A DNA stretch of 10,521 nt from Candidatus Cloacimonadota bacterium (lineage in GTDB: Bacteria; Cloacimonadota; Cloacimonadia; JGIOTU-2; B8-G9), in assembly GCA_003647765.1 (NCBI GenBank), contig QMNM01000027.1, positions 1 through 10,521 of the forward strand. Direction: 5' to 3'. Below, one piece after another: positions 1 to 8,835 of the stretch. The position numbers and the translations under genes were made by a program. The notes below the pieces were generated by a model, which saw nothing but the letters and a program-made list of their open reading frames with translations, was not told the origin of the DNA and ran no database searches. Positions within the stretch are counted from its first letter, which is position 1. Every line of letters starts with the position of its first letter.

Positions 1-480
1 ATCGTTCTATTTGATACACCAGCAGTTCTGCCAATAACAGAGTCATCATATATTTTCTCAAATTTAGATGGCGTTATCTTAATATGTAAAATACTTCAAA
101 CTACACATAATGATGTAAAAAAAGTTATAAAAAGGATTATTACTACAAATACAGAAATCTTTGGCGCTATCCTAAATTACAGTAGGCATAATATTTTTGA
201 TAAAGAATACGAAGATTATAGTGATTATTATTACAAATACAGATATAAATATGGTTATGGCTATTATGATACATACAAGGGAAAAGAAGGATTTAATTTC
301 TGGAATGATGTAATTAGAAAGCCAGCAAATAAGGTCTATAATTATATCTTATCCTCACTTTTTATCACTTATCCAAGACATAATCATAAAGAGGAACAAG
401 AAGAGGATAAGAATATTGAAGAGATAAAAAAACAAGAGATTGAAAGTTTTGGAAAGTGGGCAGATAGATTTAAGGAATAA
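1..480 (+). CDS. C-terminal part of a bacterial tyrosine kinase (Wzc/CapB-type BY-kinase), 5'-truncated by the window
   Basis: The reading frame is open from base 1 to the TAA at 478-480, giving 159 residues; the N-terminus lies outside the window. It opens with IVLFDTPAV, which fits the Walker B strand (hydrophobic run, then DxP) of P-loop BY-kinases. A cluster follows with 12 tyrosines between residues 70 and 92, the autophosphorylated tail typical of Wzc/CapB proteins. BY-kinases sit at the inner membrane, and cycles of tail phosphorylation control capsule or exopolysaccharide polymerisation and export. A Wza-like export gene two genes downstream fits this role. Walker A and A' motifs would lie upstream and cannot be checked. 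Oddly, about 67 further residues, ending in a charged Glu/Lys-rich stretch, follow the tyrosine cluster, which usually ends the protein. A MinD/ParA ATPase is the alternative, but the tyrosine tail and context argue against it. Confidence 0.8.
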   Translation: MVLFDTPAVLPITESSYIFSNLDGVILICKILQTTHNDVKKVIKRIITTNTEIFGAILNYSRHNIFDKEYEDYSDYYYKYRYKYGYGYYDTYKGKEGFNFWNDVIRKPANKVYNYILSSLFITYPRHNHKEEQEEDKNIEEIKKQEIESFGKWADRFKE

Positions 481-1589
481 TGCAAAAAAATAGTAGATTA
501 GGGCAAAAGCAAAAGTTCATAGTTTTACTCTTAATATTATTAAGTTCGGCTGTAATTGCTTGTTCTTTATATTTATTACTTACTAAGCCCAAGCAAGAGC
601 AGGAAGTTTGTTATGCTGGTATTGGAGGAGCAGTAAAAGAACCAGGAGTATATCAAGTAACTGAAAATACTTTATTATATGAGTTAATTCTAAAAGCTAA
701 TGGATTATTGGATAGAGCGGATGTTAGGCAAATGAATACTGATAAAAAGATAGTTCCTTTCAAAGTATATTGCATCCCCTTTTTGCCTAAAATGGAGTAT
801 GCCAAGGTTCCAAAGCCGAGTTTGACAGAGAGGAAGCCAAAAATTCCTAAAATGCCAACATTAAAAAAGTTTGAGAAGATAAACATTGTCTATGCTGGAC
901 TTCCAAGAACTTTTATCTTTATTTCTATCTTTCCTGATATAGATTTGATTATAGCAACTCATATTCCTTATTATACAAAAGTTACATTTGACTATGAATA
1001 TCCACGCACTTTATATGAGATTTATCTGACAGGTGGTATCCCATTTTTGCTAAGATCTGTTAAAAGAATTACAAAAGAGAGAATTGATTATTATTTTGCC
1101 CAGAAGCGTCCTGTTTGGATTAATTTTATAAATTACTTAGGCGGAATAGAGGTCAACATTCCGCCTGAGTTTGCCAAAGAATATGGATTAAAACAGGAAA
1201 GGAGAAACCTTGATGGTCTGCTTTCCTGGGAATACATTAGATTTATTAGCAAAGATGTACGAAAAATAGACCCTATAACAGGGTCAGCATGGAGAATTAA
1301 AAGACAAAAAGAGTTTATGTATTCTATGTATAAGAAATTTAAGGAACATAATTTTATGTATCAAAGCGAGATAGCAAAAAATATCCTGGCTGAAGCAGAA
1401 ACAAATATCAAAATTGACAATCTAATATCAATGGCTTATAAAATTAGAAAGATGAAGAAGCCCAAATTAGAACTCCTTACTATACCAGGAATAGTTCAAG
1501 AATATAATGGTCAAAAAATGTGGATTACAGATTTAGAAAACTATCATCTTAAAATTGAAAGTATGATAAACGAATTGGGGATTTATTAA
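480..1589 (+). CDS. Membrane-anchored SLBB-LCP (LytR-CpsA-Psr) fusion protein
   Basis: A 369-residue protein. A transmembrane segment at about 13-34 precedes an SLBB-type domain at about 43-100 (GGAVKEPGVYQV), a Lys/Pro-rich linker at 101-130, and an LCP-like domain from about 134 to 290. LCP hallmarks are the stretch around RIDYYF and NYLGGIEVNIP (201-228), then LDGLLSWEYIRF (244-255) and RIKRQ (272-276). LCP enzymes transfer undecaprenyl-linked glycopolymers to cell-wall acceptors. By my alignment D155 matches the catalytic Asp of the RSD motif and R176 the Arg of PRD, which here reads PRT; the usual GSDxR start is not evident. Activity is therefore plausible but uncertain. SLBB domains bind polysaccharide and occur in Wza. 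The ATG overlaps the upstream TAA by 1 nt, with AAGGA just before it, and the early start is needed to keep the membrane anchor. It probably attaches or releases polysaccharide in the export pathway of its neighbours. Confidence 0.72.
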   Translation: MQKNSRLGQKQKFIVLLLILLSSAVIACSLYLLLTKPKQEQEVCYAGIGGAVKEPGVYQVTENTLLYELILKANGLLDRADVRQMNTDKKIVPFKVYCIPFLPKMEYAKVPKPSLTERKPKIPKMPTLKKFEKINIVYAGLPRTFIFISIFPDIDLIIATHIPYYTKVTFDYEYPRTLYEIYLTGGIPFLLRSVKRITKERIDYYFAQKRPVWINFINYLGGIEVNIPPEFAKEYGLKQERRNLDGLLSWEYIRFISKDVRKIDPITGSAWRIKRQKEFMYSMYKKFKEHNFMYQSEIAKNILAEAETNIKIDNLISMAYKIRKMKKPKLELLTIPGIVQEYNGQKMWITDLENYHLKIESMINELGIY

Positions 1590-1592
1590 GTT

Positions 1593-2249
1593 ATGAAGAA
1601 AATTATCGTATTGTTATTTTATATCTTGATTTTGATTATCTTATTAAATGCTCAGGAGATTACTATTTCCAAAGAAGCAGAAGAGTATATCTTAAAAAGA
1701 GGTGATAGATTATCCATTGAAGTTATGGACCATCCTGAATTTACCAAAAAAGTTCGTATTCTTCCTGACGGCACAATAGAATATCCGATTTTAGGAAATA
1801 TGCTAGTAGCTGGACTATCACCAAAACAGTTAGGCGATGTTATAAAGCATAATTTAGAGCCATATGTGCCTATCCCAGTTGTAACAGTTTATGTAACAGA
1901 AATTTATGGTGAGAGCATCAATATCATTGGCTATGTTAATAGTCCAGGAACTTATCAGATTTATGAGCCGTTAGATATTCCTACTGCATTATCAAAAGCT
2001 GGTGGGATTCAGAACATACGAAAAGTGAAATATCTAAAAATCCTGCGTAAGAATGGTGAAGTCATAAAAATAAAACTATCAAGTTTGTGGGAGACAGAAA
2101 AAATCATTGTATCTGAGGAGAGCAAACTAAAATTATATGCTGGAGATACTTTGATTGTGCCACCGCCAAAAGAATTTAACTGGAGTATGTTAAATGCTTT
2201 CATCTCTATTATAGCATTGTCATTATCAATATATAATACATTAAAATAA
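1593..2249 (+). CDS. Polysaccharide export protein, Wza/PES family with one SLBB domain
   Basis: A 218-residue exported protein. A hydrophobic signal peptide at 1-21 ends in LLNAQ. A Poly_export (PES) domain follows at about 30-105: YILKRGDRLSIEVMDHPEF, then RILPDGTIEYPILG. One SLBB domain follows at about 108-190, with INIIGYVNSPGTYQI and LDIPTALSKAGGI. A hydrophobic C-terminal helix spans about 195-218. In E. coli Wza the C-terminal helices of an octamer form the outer-membrane pore through which capsule leaves, and this helix could play that part. At 218 residues it is shorter than Wza (about 380) and has one SLBB repeat fewer; the SLBB domain in the gene before may supply the missing layer, which is inference. 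The gene starts 3 nt after the upstream stop, so it belongs to the same transcription unit as the kinase. No strong Shine-Dalgarno is visible beyond GGGG about 13 nt upstream, so translation may be coupled. Confidence 0.85.
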   Translation: MKKIIVLLFYILILIILLNAQEITISKEAEEYILKRGDRLSIEVMDHPEFTKKVRILPDGTIEYPILGNMLVAGLSPKQLGDVIKHNLEPYVPIPVVTVYVTEIYGESINIIGYVNSPGTYQIYEPLDIPTALSKAGGIQNIRKVKYLKILRKNGEVIKIKLSSLWETEKIIVSEESKLKLYAGDTLIVPPPKEFNWSMLNAFISIIALSLSIYNTLK

Positions 2250-2556: not shown

Positions 2557-3987
2557 ATGAAAAAACTAGTTATATTACCAATTCTTTTCATTCTTACATC
2601 AGGCTTATTATCACAGACAAAAGAGAATATTGATTACAATCTGACAATAAAGGAGATAAATTCGGAGAGAGAGATTTCTAACTGGATTGAAAACTTATTG
2701 TTTCCATTGGTTGGTAAGGTCATAGTTGTTGTGGACTTAAAATTAAAATATCCATCTATTATTCCTTCTGGTATGGAATTGAATGATAATCTCAGTTTAC
2801 CGTCATTGCCAGCAGTAAGGTCAAGGCAGGTCATACCGAGTGAGATTGCTGGTCAAGTAATTCTGCCTACAGAGATAACCAAATTCTTTATTACAATATT
2901 TGTGGATAAAGAGATGAATAGCAAACAGATTGAGGAGATACGGAAATATCTTAACAAATGGTTTGACATTGACCCAGCAAGAGGCGATGGCATAAAGATT
3001 GAAAAAGTAAATCATATATTTTCTACATCGGAAACTCCCAAAATAGATTCAAATAAATATCTATTCATTGCTCTTATTATTGTGCTTATACTGGCAATAT
3101 TTCTAATCTCCTCCAATATGAACAAAGCGGTCAGTATTATATCTAATCAATTAGCAGAAAGAGAAAGCACTTTACATAAAGCTAATTTTGCATTTCCCAG
3201 TTTTTCACCTATGCACATTCCAGGTAAGGAAGCCATAAATATCAGAGAAGGAACAAAACCAATACCAATCCGAATTGTAAGAGAAAAGACAAATACTATG
3301 GAGAAAAAGAGAGAACTTACTGATTTCTCATTTTTAAATGAAATGCCAGAAGAGGAATTGCTTCAGCTAATTTCTGATGAACAACCAAAAACAATAGCTC
3401 TTATTCTTTCTCAATTATTACCTGAGAAAGGGGTTTTCATTTTAGAAAAGTTGTTTAGTAAAAAATATGACAGTGAGAAAATAGAGCAATTAACAAAAGA
3501 GATGATTGATGTTGCTGAAAAGAGTAAGACCCAGTTAATTTCTCTCAGACAGAAACTATTGAATAAAATTATTGCTTTTGAAGACAAACAAGTTATTGGT
3601 AAGCAAGGCGAGCAACAATTAATAAATTTTATCAATAATTCACAACCATCTATTGCAAAAAAGATAGCAGATACTATTATGAGTATCAGACCAAATATTT
3701 GGGAAAAGATAAAAAAGAATATCTTTTTGGTAGAAGATATTGTAAAATTGGATGATAGAATAATAGAGGCATTATTACGAAATATAAGTAGGCAAACTTT
3801 AGTATCATTTTTGTCTGTATCTAGTAAGGATATAAGAAATAAATTTTATAAGAATATGACCCCTCGCGCAGTTTCTATTATTAAAGAAGATATTGAAATT
3901 ATGAGAGAAGTTTCTAAGGAGAAAGCAGAGGAGTCAACCTACGAGGTATTACAACTAATTAGAATGGGATTGGGTTTGGAGGCATAG
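2557..3987 (+). CDS. fliF-fliG: FliF-FliG fusion: truncated MS-ring protein joined to flagellar rotor/switch domains
   Basis: A 476-residue protein. A signal peptide or first membrane helix (1-20) leads into a periplasmic region resembling FliF RBM3. One half lies at about 38-65 (IENLLFPLVGKVIVVVDLKL), a short loop replaces the beta-collar at 66-105, and the second half at 106-155 ends in FDIDPARGDGIKIEKV, like the FliF GYDxxRGDxVxV signature. A membrane helix (168-186) and a 65-residue linker lead to FliG middle and C-terminal domains (about 258-476). FliG marks are DEQPKTIALILSQL (274-287; EHPQ reads EQPK), FLVEDIVKLDDR (390-401) and MTPRAVSIIKEDIEIM (434-449). RBM1, RBM2 and FliG's N-terminal domain are absent. 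The last normally docks on the FliF tail, so fusion makes it unnecessary. E. coli torque residues R281, D288 and D289 match R437, E444 and D445; K264 and R297 appear as Ser. MotA and MotB follow directly, so it is probably the rotor of a non-flagellar motor. Confidence 0.82.
   Translation: MKKLVILPILFILTSGLLSQTKENIDYNLTIKEINSEREISNWIENLLFPLVGKVIVVVDLKLKYPSIIPSGMELNDNLSLPSLPAVRSRQVIPSEIAGQVILPTEITKFFITIFVDKEMNSKQIEEIRKYLNKWFDIDPARGDGIKIEKVNHIFSTSETPKIDSNKYLFIALIIVLILAIFLISSNMNKAVSIISNQLAERESTLHKANFAFPSFSPMHIPGKEAINIREGTKPIPIRIVREKTNTMEKKRELTDFSFLNEMPEEELLQLISDEQPKTIALILSQLLPEKGVFILEKLFSKKYDSEKIEQLTKEMIDVAEKSKTQLISLRQKLLNKIIAFEDKQVIGKQGEQQLINFINNSQPSIAKKIADTIMSIRPNIWEKIKKNIFLVEDIVKLDDRIIEALLRNISRQTLVSFLSVSSKDIRNKFYKNMTPRAVSIIKEDIEIMREVSKEKAEESTYEVLQLIRMGLGLEA
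3978..3982 (+). promoter_or_regulatory. Shine-Dalgarno of motA inside the end of the FliF-FliG gene
   Basis: GGAGG lies 5 nt before the ATG at 3988, within the last codons of the FliF-FliG gene, whose TAG directly abuts that ATG. It is the strongest ribosome site on the + strand here and fixes the motA start. It also ensures that rotor and stator are translated from one message. Confidence 0.75.
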
Positions 3988-4734
3988 ATGAGGTTCACTA
4001 CTATCTTTGGATTGTTGCTCGGTTTCATAATTATTTTGACTATATTATTCTTAAGTGGTTCTAAGGAATATTTTATCAACATAACTGCATTGTTAATTAC
4101 TGTGGGTGGAACTTTATGTGCCACAATAATATATTATTCGCCAAAAGCATTACATATTACTTTAATAGTATTGAAAAAATTGTTCTTTTCTAAACAATTG
4201 TATTCTAACCAATTCACAGAGATAATTGTCAATTTAGCGAGGAAATCTCGTAAGATTGGATTTGTCTCCTTATTAAAGACCAATGAAGCCAGACAGGACG
4301 CTTTTCTTTATAATGCATTAACACTATTAGCAGATGGATATAGTGCAGGTGAAATAAGGGAAGTTTTAGCAACTAAATCTGTATCTGATAGTGATAATTT
4401 TATGATTGCTGAAAGAGTTCTTAGAACAGCAGGAAGCCTGGCACCTATATTCGGAATGTTAGGCACTGTCACTGGCTTAATTATAATGCTTGGTAGAATT
4501 ACTAATCCAGAAACAATACCTTCTGCAATGGGCATTGCTTTGGTCTCTACATTCTACGGATTGATTCTATCAGGATTAATATTAAAGCCATTATCAGGGA
4601 AAATCAGGGATAAAAATGGCTTTGAGGTAAGTAACCATACTATAATTACTGAAGGGATAATATTAATTCGGAAAGGTGAAAATTCACAGATAATCCGAGA
4701 AAGATTAAGTTCCTATAATGTGAGTTCATTATGA
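3988..4734 (+). CDS. motA: MotA-type stator protein (flagellar motor family)
   Basis: A 248-residue inner-membrane protein of normal MotA length. Helices lie at about 3-23, 29-51, 146-169 and 178-200, with a large cytoplasmic loop between helices 2 and 3 and a cytoplasmic tail. MotA/PomA features are ITVGGTLCATII (37-48), LARKSRKIGFVSL (83-95), LAPIFGMLGTVTGLIIMLG (151-169), STFYGLILSGLILKPLSGKI (187-206) and a GENSQIIRERL tail. MotA pentamers surround two MotB subunits and convert ion flow into torque on FliG. E. coli R90, which contacts FliG, aligns with R88, but E98 aligns with L96. Prolines P173 and P222 appear to match P153 and P201. It abuts the FliF-FliG gene and overlaps motB by 4 nt. 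Length, loop and GENxxxIRE tail favour MotA over ExbB/TolQ; a ZorA-like long coiled tail is absent. Confidence 0.9.
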   Translation: MRFTTIFGLLLGFIIILTILFLSGSKEYFINITALLITVGGTLCATIIYYSPKALHITLIVLKKLFFSKQLYSNQFTEIIVNLARKSRKIGFVSLLKTNEARQDAFLYNALTLLADGYSAGEIREVLATKSVSDSDNFMIAERVLRTAGSLAPIFGMLGTVTGLIIMLGRITNPETIPSAMGIALVSTFYGLILSGLILKPLSGKIRDKNGFEVSNHTIITEGIILIRKGENSQIIRERLSSYNVSSL

Positions 4735-5405
4735 TTAAAAATATTAAAGCTATTATTAAAAGAAAACAAATTGTGGATATTGAGGATACTAATAAAGAGA
4801 CAAGCAATTGGCTGGATGTAATGGTCCCTTATGCAGATTTAATGACTTTGCTACTGATTTTTTTCGTATTCTTTTTCAAGTTCTCAGATATTGGTGGAAC
4901 TGTCAATATAAATAAAAATATTGGTTCTCAATATAATACAGCAATGGATTCAACAAAAGTATTATCTGAAAAGACAAAGATTGATACTCTTAAACAAGAA
5001 GAGGAAAGCCGAGTAAATGAAAAAGAATTTATTATTAGAATTAGTAATAATATTCTATTTGATTCAGGAGAGGCGAGCTTAAAAAAGTCGGCATATCCAA
5101 CATTAGCTCTAATAGCTAATAGAATATCAAAAAAAGTTAAAATAGAGAATTATCAAGTTCGTGTAGAGGGACATACTGACAATGTTCCAATCAGAACTAT
5201 AAAATATCCATCTAATTGGGAGTTATCTATTGCTCGTGCTTTGTCAGTGGTAAGATTTTTTATAGAGTATAATTACTTTTTACCTGACCAATTACAAGCA
5301 ATGGGATATGGAGAGCATAAGCCATTATATCCTAATGATACTCCTGAAAATAGAGCAAAAAATCGCCGTGTAGAGATACGACTTGTAAAGCCAACAAAAT
5401 TATAA
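4731..5405 (+). CDS. motB: MotB-type stator protein with OmpA peptidoglycan-binding domain
   Basis: A 224-residue protein. The N-terminal cytoplasmic tail is followed by one transmembrane helix at about 33-52, VPYADLMTLLLIFFVFFF. This carries D36, which matches the ion-carrying Asp32 of E. coli MotB. A short, charged periplasmic linker (about 53-100) leads to an OmpA-like domain (about 101-218). There NNILFDSGEASL, VEGHTDNVPI, SNWELSIARA and the ENRAKNRRVEI ending are all intact, so peptidoglycan anchoring is expected. Total length is a little below the usual 250-300, mainly from the short linker. The ATGA overlap with motA indicates translational coupling. With MotA it would form the stator that drives the FliF-FliG rotor. 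Whether the ion is H+ or Na+ cannot be decided from sequence. TolR/ExbD is excluded by the OmpA domain. Confidence 0.92.
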   Translation: MIKNIKAIIKRKQIVDIEDTNKETSNWLDVMVPYADLMTLLLIFFVFFFKFSDIGGTVNINKNIGSQYNTAMDSTKVLSEKTKIDTLKQEEESRVNEKEFIIRISNNILFDSGEASLKKSAYPTLALIANRISKKVKIENYQVRVEGHTDNVPIRTIKYPSNWELSIARALSVVRFFIEYNYFLPDQLQAMGYGEHKPLYPNDTPENRAKNRRVEIRLVKPTKL

Positions 5406-5415
5406 AAAATTTTAG

Positions 5416-5557
5416 TAGTCCTCCACAAGTAGTGGTGAATGATTTATTAAATAAAGCATCTCAGAACACCACTACTTATACAGGATTATCCATTTTCAGA
5501 TAATAGACCGTGAAACCCGACTCGAGTTCAAAGAACCCGAGTCGGGTTTCTGTCTGC
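5416..5557 (+). repeat. Two-hairpin intergenic repeat, copy 2 (well preserved)
   Basis: This 142-bp segment is related to 2355-2501 and in the same orientation. Its first hairpin has 22-bp arms at 5416-5437 and 5467-5488 with about four mismatches, including a perfect 11-bp core (AAGTAGTGGTG against CACCACTACTT). The interior (ATGATTTATT with AAATAAAGCAT) is also largely self-complementary, so almost the whole segment folds. A conserved linker leads to the second hairpin at 5513-5549. It starts 10 bases after the motB stop, between convergent gene sets. Together with copy 1 it brackets the three motor genes. Confidence 0.85.
5513..5549 (+). terminator. 17-bp stem, AAA-loop hairpin after motB; likely terminator between convergent units
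   Basis: The arms AAACCCGACTCGAGTTC and GAACCCGAGTCGGGTTT pair at 16 of 17 positions around an AAA loop. Placed about 108 bases after the motB stop and 90 bases beyond the end of the opposing gene, it could end transcription from both sides. The T tract after it is short, so termination strength is uncertain. Confidence 0.6.
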
Positions 5558-5637: not shown

Positions 5638-8600
5638 TTATTTCCCAGTAGGATAGAACAGCTCATCTGGCGCATTCATTTTAAGTTTGTACCCGACTTT
5701 TGGTTCCATTGTTGTTAAATTGCCGACCCATACGCCATACCAAGTAGCAGATTGCGTCTGATTCTTTATCTGATATGCGTTGCCTTGAATTCCATATAAA
5801 GCATCAGTAATTGGAATGGAAACCTGTGGAAAATATGCAATCCAATTCCAATTCTCATTTAAGCTAATAGAATTTGTATCACAGTCAATAGGAATTCCTG
5901 TTGCAGAAAAAGATGCTGAATTATTCATTTGGACTAAATAGCCGTCATCTTTATAAATATGTGTTAAATTGCCAACCCATACGCCATACCAAGTAGCAGA
6001 TTGCGTCTGATTCTTCACCTGATGAATATAACCATTACTTGTTAATTCGCTAAATACAGCGGATAATGAACTGTCTTCAAATTCTACATTAAACGAAATC
6101 CAGTTCCAATCCTGATCTAAATCATAAGTCCAGGACACAAGATTGCTAACTTGCAACTTTTGAGCAAAAATATTATAAATATCAGTTTTGCCACTGGAAC
6201 GAGTGTCTTCCCAAATAACTATTGCATTTCCACAATTGTCTTTGACTGCTTTTGGATCTGTCTGTTTTTTAATAGCATCGCAAACTAATAGTCCGTCAGT
6301 TGCCCACTGCAATTGTCCATCTAAATCCAATTTTTGAGCATAAATATCAGAATTCCCAGATGAGTCATCTTTCCACAGTATTAGAATATTATCGCCTATC
6401 TTAACTAAACAAGGACAGGATTGGTCATCTGGTTTATTTGTTATTGCTACTCCATCAGGAGTCCATAATTCTGTTCCAGTGCTATCATATTTTTGTATAA
6501 ACACATCATTATCATTACCATTTCTGAAATCTTGCCACACATTGTAAATATACCCATCATAGATAAAATCGGATGCTCCTTGATCATTGGATAAATCAAT
6601 TAAAGGAATACCATCATTTTGCCATAATGTTTCTCCTGAGTATGTAATTATCTGTCCATATATATCCATGTTACCATTACGCAAATCCTCCCATACAATT
6701 AATAGTCCAAGAGGTGTTAGTACTCCTTTTGCATTTTTTTGATGGCCTGATGCTCCGCAAACAAGAAGTCCATCATCAGACCAGCCCGGAGCAGTGTTTC
6801 CATTCTCATCAACAAGTTTGGCATAGATATTATAATTAGAAGAACATTCATTTTGCCAGATAAAAAAGCGTCCCACTATATCAGTTAGAAAATCATCCCA
6901 ATCTAAATCTGCAATTTTGACACCTTCATTTGCCCATTGAAGCTCGCCATTTCTAATAGATTGTGCATAGATGCCATAATTCCAATTATCACGAAGGTCA
7001 GACCATCCTACATAATAGTTCTGTGTATCTGGACTGATATATTCCACAGACAGTTTTGCACCTTGCTGTTCTGCAAGGAAAGTGCCAACTGGTATTCCTG
7101 TATTACTCCACAAGAAATTGCCATTGATATCTACGGCTTGGGCATATATCTGGGTATAGTCCGCTCTATTTTCCTGCCATACAATTACAGCACCATCTAC
7201 AGTATAATGAACAACAGCATCAGGATATTCCTGGTCTGAGCCAGTAGGCTCAGTAATAGCTTTTCCATTCACTTGTAATCCAAGAGAGCCATCATTATTC
7301 AAGACCTGCATAAAAATTTGCCTTCCAAGTACTGGATTACGAGTATCTTCCCAAATTATTATAGATTTATTACCATCTCCTAAAATTTCATAATTACAAG
7401 CATCTCCACATAATCCATAATAAATAATTTCACCATTAGCAGATAAAATAATATTACCAGCACTATCTAAAATTTGGACATATATTCCAGTTGAGCCAAG
7501 TCTGTTATCACCCCATACAGCAAATAGATTATTATCAGTGTCTCTTCTTAATAATGGCGAGAATTGTTCACCATCTGCATTGCAAATCGGTTTTCCATTC
7601 TGTTCAAAAAGGGCATTTCCAATAGCGTCAATATGTTGCACATAAATATCCTCATATGGATGACCTTGTATTCGTCCATCTTCCCAGATGAAGTAGCAAC
7701 CACCATTAGTATCATTGATGAGTCGTGGATTTATTTGGTCATTTTGTTCCGTGCATAGGGCTAATCCTGATGTGTTCCAGACCAAATTACCATCAAGTGC
7801 AATTTTTTGAGCATATATATCTTTTGTAAATGGGTCATTACGGCCGTCTTCCCATACGATAATTGCTCCGCCATCAGAAGCAGTTGTAATTCTTGGATTT
7901 TGCTGAATGCCATTAGCTACATATACTTGTATTTCCTCAGTCCACAGGAAATCGCCATTGATATCAACACGATGAGCAAAAATATCACCATTATTTTCAT
8001 TTCTTTTATCTCGCCATACGAAAATAAAAGAGCCAGTTCCATCAGGAGCAATTTTTACGCCTTCTTGAATTCCTGTAGCATCACATAGTAATTTGCCACC
8101 AGTATCCCAGAGTAAAGTTCCATCAGCAGAGATTCTTTGCATATACAAGTTTTCATTGCTTGCGTTGCGTGTATCATGCCATGCAACTATTGCTCCACCA
8201 TTGCCATCTTCCCAAAATGTATGCCCATCTTGAGAGCCACTTTCATGTGCAATCGGATTACCATTTACATCCCAGCCAGATGCAATACTGCCAGAAGATT
8301 CAATATGTGTTCCATAAATGTCCACTCCACCAGGATTACGGCTGTCTAACCAGATTATATAAGCACCACCATTATCATCATTAACAATATTCAATGAAAT
8401 TTGCACATCCCCAGCTAGGCATAAAGGCACGCCTATAGTATTCCATACTAAATTACCATTTTCATTTAGTTTCTGTGCATATATATCACCAGCTTCCTCA
8501 TTACGAAAATCTACCCAAGCAATAATAACATTACCATCCCCAGCATTGATTACTACTGGATCCTCTTGCCTGTCAATTTCACCATTAACTAAAACTGCAT

Positions 8601-8835
8601 CTTCTCCCCATAGAAGATTACCATTAATATCAATTTTCTGAGCCCATACATCACGGTCACCATTACGAGTATCAGACCAAACATAAACTACACTACCATC
8701 GTCAAGTGAAGCTGCTGCTCTTGACCATTCAATATTAACACCTTGACGAATGGGTATCCCATTTTCTGTCCATTGTAGCTGTGCAATCAATGTTGTAGAT
8801 AACAACACTATCACAATTATTATAAGTCGTTTCAT
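5638..8835 (-). CDS. Large secreted protein with sixteen WxDxRN repeats and paired C-terminal 'NWNWI' modules
   Basis: A 1065-residue protein with a clear signal peptide (1-19, ending LSTTLIAQ). Residues about 40-895 carry sixteen copies of a roughly 55-residue repeat, W-[SEDR]-D-x-R-N, then DIYAQ and D-x-x-G-N-x-x-W; the first tryptophan is W53 and the last W875. Copies 12 and 15 have lost part of the WxDxRN core. Sixteen evenly spaced copies suggest a beta-propeller-like fold, possibly two eight-bladed units; this is inference. From residue 901 come two tandem modules of about 83 residues. Each holds NWNWI (910-914 and 996-1000 regions) and the identical KNQTQSATWYGVWVGNLT (from 941 and 1024). 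I do not recognise a named family or catalytic residues. Surface adhesion, glycan binding or cell-surface display are possibilities. AAGGAG lies 6 nt before the ATG. It lies 70 bases after larA on the same strand, so cotranscription is possible. Confidence 0.85.
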   Translation of the reverse strand: MKRLIIIVIVLLSTTLIAQLQWTENGIPIRQGVNIEWSRAAASLDDGSVVYVWSDTRNGDRDVWAQKIDINGNLLWGEDAVLVNGEIDRQEDPVVINAGDGNVIIAWVDFRNEEAGDIYAQKLNENGNLVWNTIGVPLCLAGDVQISLNIVNDDNGGAYIIWLDSRNPGGVDIYGTHIESSGSIASGWDVNGNPIAHESGSQDGHTFWEDGNGGAIVAWHDTRNASNENLYMQRISADGTLLWDTGGKLLCDATGIQEGVKIAPDGTGSFIFVWRDKRNENNGDIFAHRVDINGDFLWTEEIQVYVANGIQQNPRITTASDGGAIIVWEDGRNDPFTKDIYAQKIALDGNLVWNTSGLALCTEQNDQINPRLINDTNGGCYFIWEDGRIQGHPYEDIYVQHIDAIGNALFEQNGKPICNADGEQFSPLLRRDTDNNLFAVWGDNRLGSTGIYVQILDSAGNIILSANGEIIYYGLCGDACNYEILGDGNKSIIIWEDTRNPVLGRQIFMQVLNNDGSLGLQVNGKAITEPTGSDQEYPDAVVHYTVDGAVIVWQENRADYTQIYAQAVDINGNFLWSNTGIPVGTFLAEQQGAKLSVEYISPDTQNYYVGWSDLRDNWNYGIYAQSIRNGELQWANEGVKIADLDWDDFLTDIVGRFFIWQNECSSNYNIYAKLVDENGNTAPGWSDDGLLVCGASGHQKNAKGVLTPLGLLIVWEDLRNGNMDIYGQIITYSGETLWQNDGIPLIDLSNDQGASDFIYDGYIYNVWQDFRNGNDNDVFIQKYDSTGTELWTPDGVAITNKPDDQSCPCLVKIGDNILILWKDDSSGNSDIYAQKLDLDGQLQWATDGLLVCDAIKKQTDPKAVKDNCGNAIVIWEDTRSSGKTDIYNIFAQKLQVSNLVSWTYDLDQDWNWISFNVEFEDSSLSAVFSELTSNGYIHQVKNQTQSATWYGVWVGNLTHIYKDDGYLVQMNNSASFSATGIPIDCDTNSISLNENWNWIAYFPQVSIPITDALYGIQGNAYQIKNQTQSATWYGVWVGNLTTMEPKVGYKLKMNAPDELFYPTGK
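5714..5766 (-). repeat. 53-bp intragenic direct repeat, copy A
   Basis: It matches 5963-6015 at 52 of 53 bases. On the minus strand it encodes the KNQTQSATWYGVWVGNLT segment of the last C-terminal module. The flanking parts of the two modules differ strongly in both DNA and protein. Confidence 0.92.
5963..6015 (-). repeat. 53-bp intragenic direct repeat, copy B
   Basis: The partner of 5714-5766, offset by 249 bases (83 codons, in frame). It encodes the same 18 residues in the first of the two C-terminal modules; the only difference is a silent change in a Val codon (GTC/GTT). Confidence 0.92.

Follow-up and report, generated by a model that had tools for sequence, protein, structure and literature searches.

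The motor of the bacterial flagellum is familiar as one component of that organelle and its export system, and the locus considered here raises the question of what a flagellar-type motor might turn in a bacterium that appears to build no flagellum. The analysed stretch of DNA, referred to below as the window, is a complete contig (C27; 10,521 nucleotides) of a Cloacimonadota-class metagenome-assembled genome (MAG) of 1.97 Mb, which consists of 360 contigs and is 88.8% complete. In the initial annotation, three consecutive genes of the window, fliFG, motA and motB, were interpreted as a self-contained rotor-stator cassette and, possibly, as a previously undescribed non-flagellar rotary machine.

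The open reading frames of the three genes lie exactly at the positions, and with the spacing, given in that annotation (Table 1). The window FliFG matches FliG_C (72 bits) and FliG_M (30.3 bits) above the Pfam cut-offs, and the stator proteins match MotA_ExbB (67.5 bits), MotB_plug (32.4 bits) and OmpA (75.8 bits), all above the curated cut-offs. Together with the evidence for a FliF RBM3 domain presented below, these matches bear out the assignment of a rotor, a stator channel and a peptidoglycan anchor. The closest curated families are all flagellar (FliG; MotP/PomA/MotA; MotD/MotS), and in profile comparisons with solved structures MotA aligns with MotA over its full length (E 1e-35) and MotB yields an E value of 3e-28. 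Across the aligned cassette copies, both MotA channel prolines are kept in all 21 and the ion-binding Asp of MotB in 20 of 21.

Table 1. Features of the cassette region and of FliFG in the window (positions in nucleotides)
Feature	Position	Strand	Description
Wzc-type BY-kinase gene, 3' part	1..480	+	cut by contig start; 5' part ends contig C12
LytR-CpsA-Psr (LCP) protein with SLBB domain	480..1589	+	cassette-linked in three genomes
Wza-like polysaccharide export protein	1593..2249	+	cassette-linked in three genomes
fliFG	2557..3987	+	476 aa; N-terminal hydrophobic segment, RBM3-like periplasmic domain, one TM helix, linker, FliG middle and C-terminal domains
FliF RBM3-like periplasmic domain	2644..3012	+	residues about 30-152; conserved LP-G/S-LP and RGD motifs
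FliFG transmembrane helix	3058..3114	+	residues 168-186 by hydropathy; helix 167-206 in predicted model
FliG ARM_M/ARM_C	3316..3945	+	residues 254-463; PDB profile 3hjl E 5.5e-36; Foldseek 3.7e-9
EQPK replacing FliM-binding EHPQ	3379..3390	+	FliFG residues 275-278
motA	3988..4734	+	248 aa; 0-nt gap after fliFG; stator ion-channel subunit; channel prolines P153, P201 kept
motB	4731..5405	+	224 aa; 4-nt overlap with motA; one TM, ion-binding Asp D36, OmpA-type peptidoglycan-binding domain

The FliF part of the window FliFG lies below Pfam detection. Profile searches against solved FliF (9yh6 and 12dr) returned E values of 0.0014 and 0.0012 for the window protein and 0.016 for its N-terminal domain alone, and the predicted fold, a model of modest confidence (mean pLDDT 69.9, pTM 0.34), matches the FliF RBM3/S-ring (6sd3_Q, 9.5e-4; 8z5v_A, 1.2e-3). 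Because the direct hhalign comparison of FliFG with flagellar FliF is weak (44% probability), the relationship had to be bridged through an unfused homologue, FliF' (see below): the N-terminus of FliFG aligns with FliF' at E 4.6e-8, and an E value of 7.9e-13 links FliF' to the class's flagellar FliF. Furthermore, FliF' scores 36.2 bits on FliF_C (cut-off 23.8) and its alignment spans only positions 234-553 of the 555 in FliF, indicating that it has neither RBM1 nor RBM2. The MS ring of flagella encloses the export gate (PMC7693769), so that the missing domains fit the absence of a gate. Thus, the initial reading of the rotor was right as to its FliF and FliG parts but overlooked the truncation of FliF to RBM3. 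The replacement of EHPQ noted in that reading was found as described (Table 1), and the loss of this FliM-binding motif extends to the whole family, with EHPQ present in none of 22 cassette sequences versus four of the four alignable flagellar FliG of the class. The window protein retains the charged residues (DDR) of the FliG rotor, which vary among its relatives.

Profile searches detected no FlhA, FliM/FliN or rod/hook genes either in the window or in the rest of the assembly, which holds a single FliG_C domain; nor did they reveal, elsewhere in this genome, a flagellar gene set lacking its own fliF, fliG, motA and motB, the situation that, according to the initial annotation, would have spoken against a non-flagellar machine. 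We searched 124 genomes of the same class for three flagellar markers (FlhA, FliMN_C and Flg_bb_rod), each of which matches the same 12 genomes, the own genome not being among them; the FlhA profile was positive in four control genomes. The FliF_C profile matches 10 of the 12 flagellated relatives and no other genome of the class, the own genome included among the negatives. The fliFG fusion is carried by 23 of the 124 genomes, and all three markers are absent from 22 of these carriers, including 13 of at least 90% completeness; G055 is the single carrier with a flagellum. Mutual exclusion of cassette and flagellum was considered and dropped, given that one flagellated genome among 23 carriers is no different from chance (Fisher p 0.46). 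Conservation of the trio in relatives that likewise lack the FlhA, FliM/FliN and rod markers, together with the missing flagellar genes of the own genome, supports the proposal of a putative non-flagellar rotary machine, as far as gene content can indicate.

The description of the cassette as self-contained, however, proved an overstatement, the trio being part of a larger conserved locus. In most carriers the gene order is C2-C4-FliFG-MotA-MotB, where C2 is a giant protein of the Ig/PKD/cadherin or FG-GAP type that is secreted and has a C-terminal CHU_C-type sorting domain resembling those of type-B cargo of the Type IX secretion system (T9SS), and C4 is an outer-membrane beta-barrel, PorV/SprF-like, with a TPR tail. 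In the own genome, C2 matches CHU_C with 37.3 bits (Pfam cut-off 27) and falls just under the cut-off of the NCBIfam type-B model TIGR04131 (32.3 versus 35), whereas C4 scores 30.8 bits on PorP_SprF (Pfam cut-off 22.3) and remains under the NCBIfam cut-offs for both TIGR03519 (28.4 versus 90.55) and the PorV model. In structure comparisons, the predicted C4 fold resembles that of the T9SS translocon protein PorV (E 9e-10), with Z of about 29 for PorV and FadL. The own C2 and C4 genes reside on a separate contig, C12, whose end falls within wzc. As the window opens within wzc about 208 codons beyond that point, the two contigs probably adjoin each other across a gap of about 0.6 kb. FliFG and C4-specific matches co-occur in 21 genomes of the class, compared with two that hold FliFG only, three that hold C4 only and 98 that hold neither (Fisher 1.6e-18, a value not corrected for phylogeny). 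FliFG, MotA, MotB, C4 and C2 display dN/dS ratios of 0.05-0.16 among close relatives, and purifying selection acts on each of these five genes. Some copies also travel with exopolysaccharide genes: the class genome G051 and a locus from another phylum (L103) share AAA, Wzc, LCP, Wza, FliFG, MotA, MotB, C2 and C4 in an order that differs in each, and overall the cassette genes recur in three different orders. Thus, the trio itself was correctly read in the initial annotation, which missed the T9SS-type adhesin, the outer-membrane carrier and the exopolysaccharide genes.

All named carriers belong to Ca. Cloacimonadota (Ca. Tenebribacter among them), apart from one MAG of Neomarinimicrobiota (Fidelibacterota), in which the whole gene set forms one block (L103) and FlhA is absent. 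Matches to the FliFG profile were obtained in 70 of 245 Fidelibacterota genomes, many of them representing ordinary flagellar FliG. In addition, Fidelibacterota encode an unfused version of the set, with MotA, MotB, a FliF-like protein and a FliG of ~310 aa in this order at the nine loci examined, although three of the FliF-like genes carry no HMM label and were assigned by position and alignment. The unfused FliF' is RBM3-only. A C4-like gene directly precedes MotA in eight of the nine loci, and its product, C4', has the same TPR tail as C4 (hhalign E 3.3e-25). A second fused type, found at four loci, consists of FliFG followed by two C4-like barrels, with no adjacent motAB. The wider Fidelibacterota family is represented at L126-L129 and L130-L138, and some of the unfused operons come from small genomes in which no classic FliG was matched. 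In the FliG phylogeny, the cassette FliFG, including that of the window, form a clade (support 100/99). Further clades, each separate, comprise flagellar FliG from the two phyla (100/99), FliG of the unfused type (100/100) and FliFG of the second fused type (96/84); the branches are long and the deeper joins unsure. Judging from these comparisons of genes and genomes, the fused FliF-RBM3/FliG, the complete MotA/MotB, C2 and C4 constitute one conserved gene set in bacteria predicted to lack flagella, which suggests an undescribed rotary machine moving cell-surface proteins. We found no description of such a machine in open PMC full texts, and a 2026 review of gliding makes no mention of FliG (PMC13104615).

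The closest counterpart for the output is the gliding apparatus of Bacteroidota, which comprises the GldLM motor, the GldJKN track, the SprF carrier and the SprB adhesin. In Bacteroidota, type-B cargo binds PorP-like carriers (PMC9143113), and in gliding, SprF carries the SprB adhesin and links it to the motor-driven track (PMC12635249); these two relationships serve as our model. The cassette genomes resemble this system in the giant repeat adhesin with its T9SS type-B-like domain, in the PorP/SprF-PorV-like carrier, in the SprA translocon and in a motor that is predicted to be ion-driven and of the 5:2 class. By contrast, the cassette motor is FliFG-MotAB, with neither GldL nor GldM scoring above cut-off in the class or in the control genomes, and the carrier tail is TPR in C4 as opposed to Cys-X-Cys in SprF (PMC12635249). 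The idea that a conserved Cys of C4 might correspond to the SprF-GldK disulfide was dropped, because this residue lies in the TPR and is absent from the Fidelibacterota consensus.

We favour, with moderate confidence, a rotor-stator machine in the cell envelope, ion-driven and separate from any flagellum, that moves T9SS-displayed adhesins, with a gliding-like output. We infer that FliFG would assemble into a small hybrid of S-ring and C-ring, which a peptidoglycan-anchored MotA5MotB2 stator would turn by ion flow. Given the absence of FliM/FliN, such a ring would not be reversed by the known switch and, given the absence of RBM1/RBM2, it would house no export gate. The RBM3 ring might pass torque, probably via the TPR tail of C4, to the carrier in the outer membrane and to its bound adhesin, and the adhesins (C2) would, as a consequence, move or spin on the cell surface. 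The output would most likely be gliding or active adhesion, that is, the job performed by GldLM-SprF-SprB in Bacteroidota, with a flagellar-type motor replacing GldLM. Whether surface motility thereby has an ion-driven machine of a third kind, in which a flagellar-type rotor and stator, relieved of export gate, switch and filament, turn or drag T9SS-displayed adhesins via an outer-membrane carrier, appears to us evenly balanced. Such a machine would span at least two phyla of the FCB group, with rotor lineages separate from those of flagella, implying either a stripped-down flagellum or a branch whose motor never had a filament. If so, the flagellar motor could act as a free-standing module that needs neither an export gate nor a switch, rod or filament, and it would become testable whether the motor and the export system have separate histories. 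Gliding biology would gain an additional type of motor, T9SS adhesins a candidate role in phyla where GldLM has not been recognised, and structural work a natural minimal FliF-FliG rotor.

An alternative that we consider unlikely is that FliFG-MotAB energises T9SS export rather than movement, replacing GldLM/PorLM in expelling the type-B adhesin together with its carrier from the SprA translocon. The own genome does encode SprA (TIGR04189, 546.7 bits; cut-off 200), C2 and C4 resemble T9SS-type cargo and carrier, and no GldM or GldL scored above cut-off in the 124 class genomes, which would leave room for another energiser there, although the GldL and GldM models were built on Bacteroidota and were equally silent in the control genomes. 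However, SprA_N was detected in all 70 class genomes that are at least 90% complete, compared with the cassette in 23 of 124, and some SprA-bearing Cloacimonadota carry no cassette. The far wider distribution of SprA makes a general T9SS energiser unlikely; at most, one dedicated cargo would be served.

Even less probable, in our view, is a motor for exopolysaccharide, whose rotation would drive or shape a polymer exported via Wzc/LCP/Wza, as in the spore-coat motor Agl-Nfs of Myxococcus. Wzc, LCP and Wza do adjoin the trio in the window and accompany it in G051 and L103, but most carriers possess C2-C4-FliFG-MotA-MotB without them, the constant partners being the adhesin and the outer-membrane carrier. 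The gliding and spore-coat motors of Myxococcus (AglRQS/Nfs) are comparable to the cassette as MotAB-like motors working without a flagellum; the cassette differs in having T9SS-type surface proteins instead of Glt/Nfs and in the presence of FliF/FliG, AglRQS having, to our knowledge, no FliF/FliG rotor. Zorya was rejected as well: the window MotB resembles ZorB of ZorAB, but MotA has no match to the ZorA models and FliFG none to any PADLOC model.

It is very improbable that the cassette is the remnant of a lost flagellum, or that a flagellar set was missed through incomplete assembly. FliG, MotA and MotB are flagellar homologues, with conserved ion-binding Asp, channel prolines and peptidoglycan anchor, and the assembly is fragmented and incomplete; nevertheless, the 13 more complete carriers without FlhA, FliM/N and rod genes, the low dN/dS, the separate cassette FliFG clade and the new constant partners C2 and C4 all argue against this reading. 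Relative to the flagellar motor, the cassette is without the FlhA export gate, the FliM/FliN switch and the rod/hook, has a FliF that is reduced to RBM3 and joined to FliG, has lost EHPQ and has its genes linked to those of a surface adhesin and an outer-membrane carrier. A TolQR/ExbBD-like force transducer, in which MotAB only pulls through the envelope while FliFG is a static docking protein with no rotating ring, would accommodate the loss of EHPQ and of some torque-helix charges, and ring assembly of FliFG is itself a prediction, but we regard it as very improbable in view of the purifying selection on the combination of a ring-building RBM3 with FliG ARM_M/ARM_C, which is what a rotor requires, and of the maintenance of this combination as separate FliF' and FliG' in Fidelibacterota.

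Several cassette copies deviate from the common pattern. In the sole flagellated carrier (G055, L049), the ion-binding Asp of the cassette MotB is replaced by Asn, and this is perhaps a dead or dying copy. The MotB of G116 and G115 (L032:9579-10001 and L034:1338-1877) are without the OmpA domain and have a different C-terminus, which in G116 resembles LysM by eye, with no Pfam support. A divergent FliFG paralogue with no adjacent C2-C4 occurs in G101, G077 and G075 (L051, L053 and L056), and G101 and G075 hold a standard FliFG copy besides. Downstream of the trio, the window encodes on the minus strand (5638-8835) a secreted protein of 1065 aa with DIYAQKID..NG repeats and a duplicated C-terminal unit, without a significant Pfam family. 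The trio is flanked by two direct repeats with a strong hairpin (2334-2501 and 5395-5557). Their interpretation as the mark of a mobile element was rejected, because the same hairpin is also found 3' of sprA (L083:7824), indicating that these are dispersed intergenic repeats.
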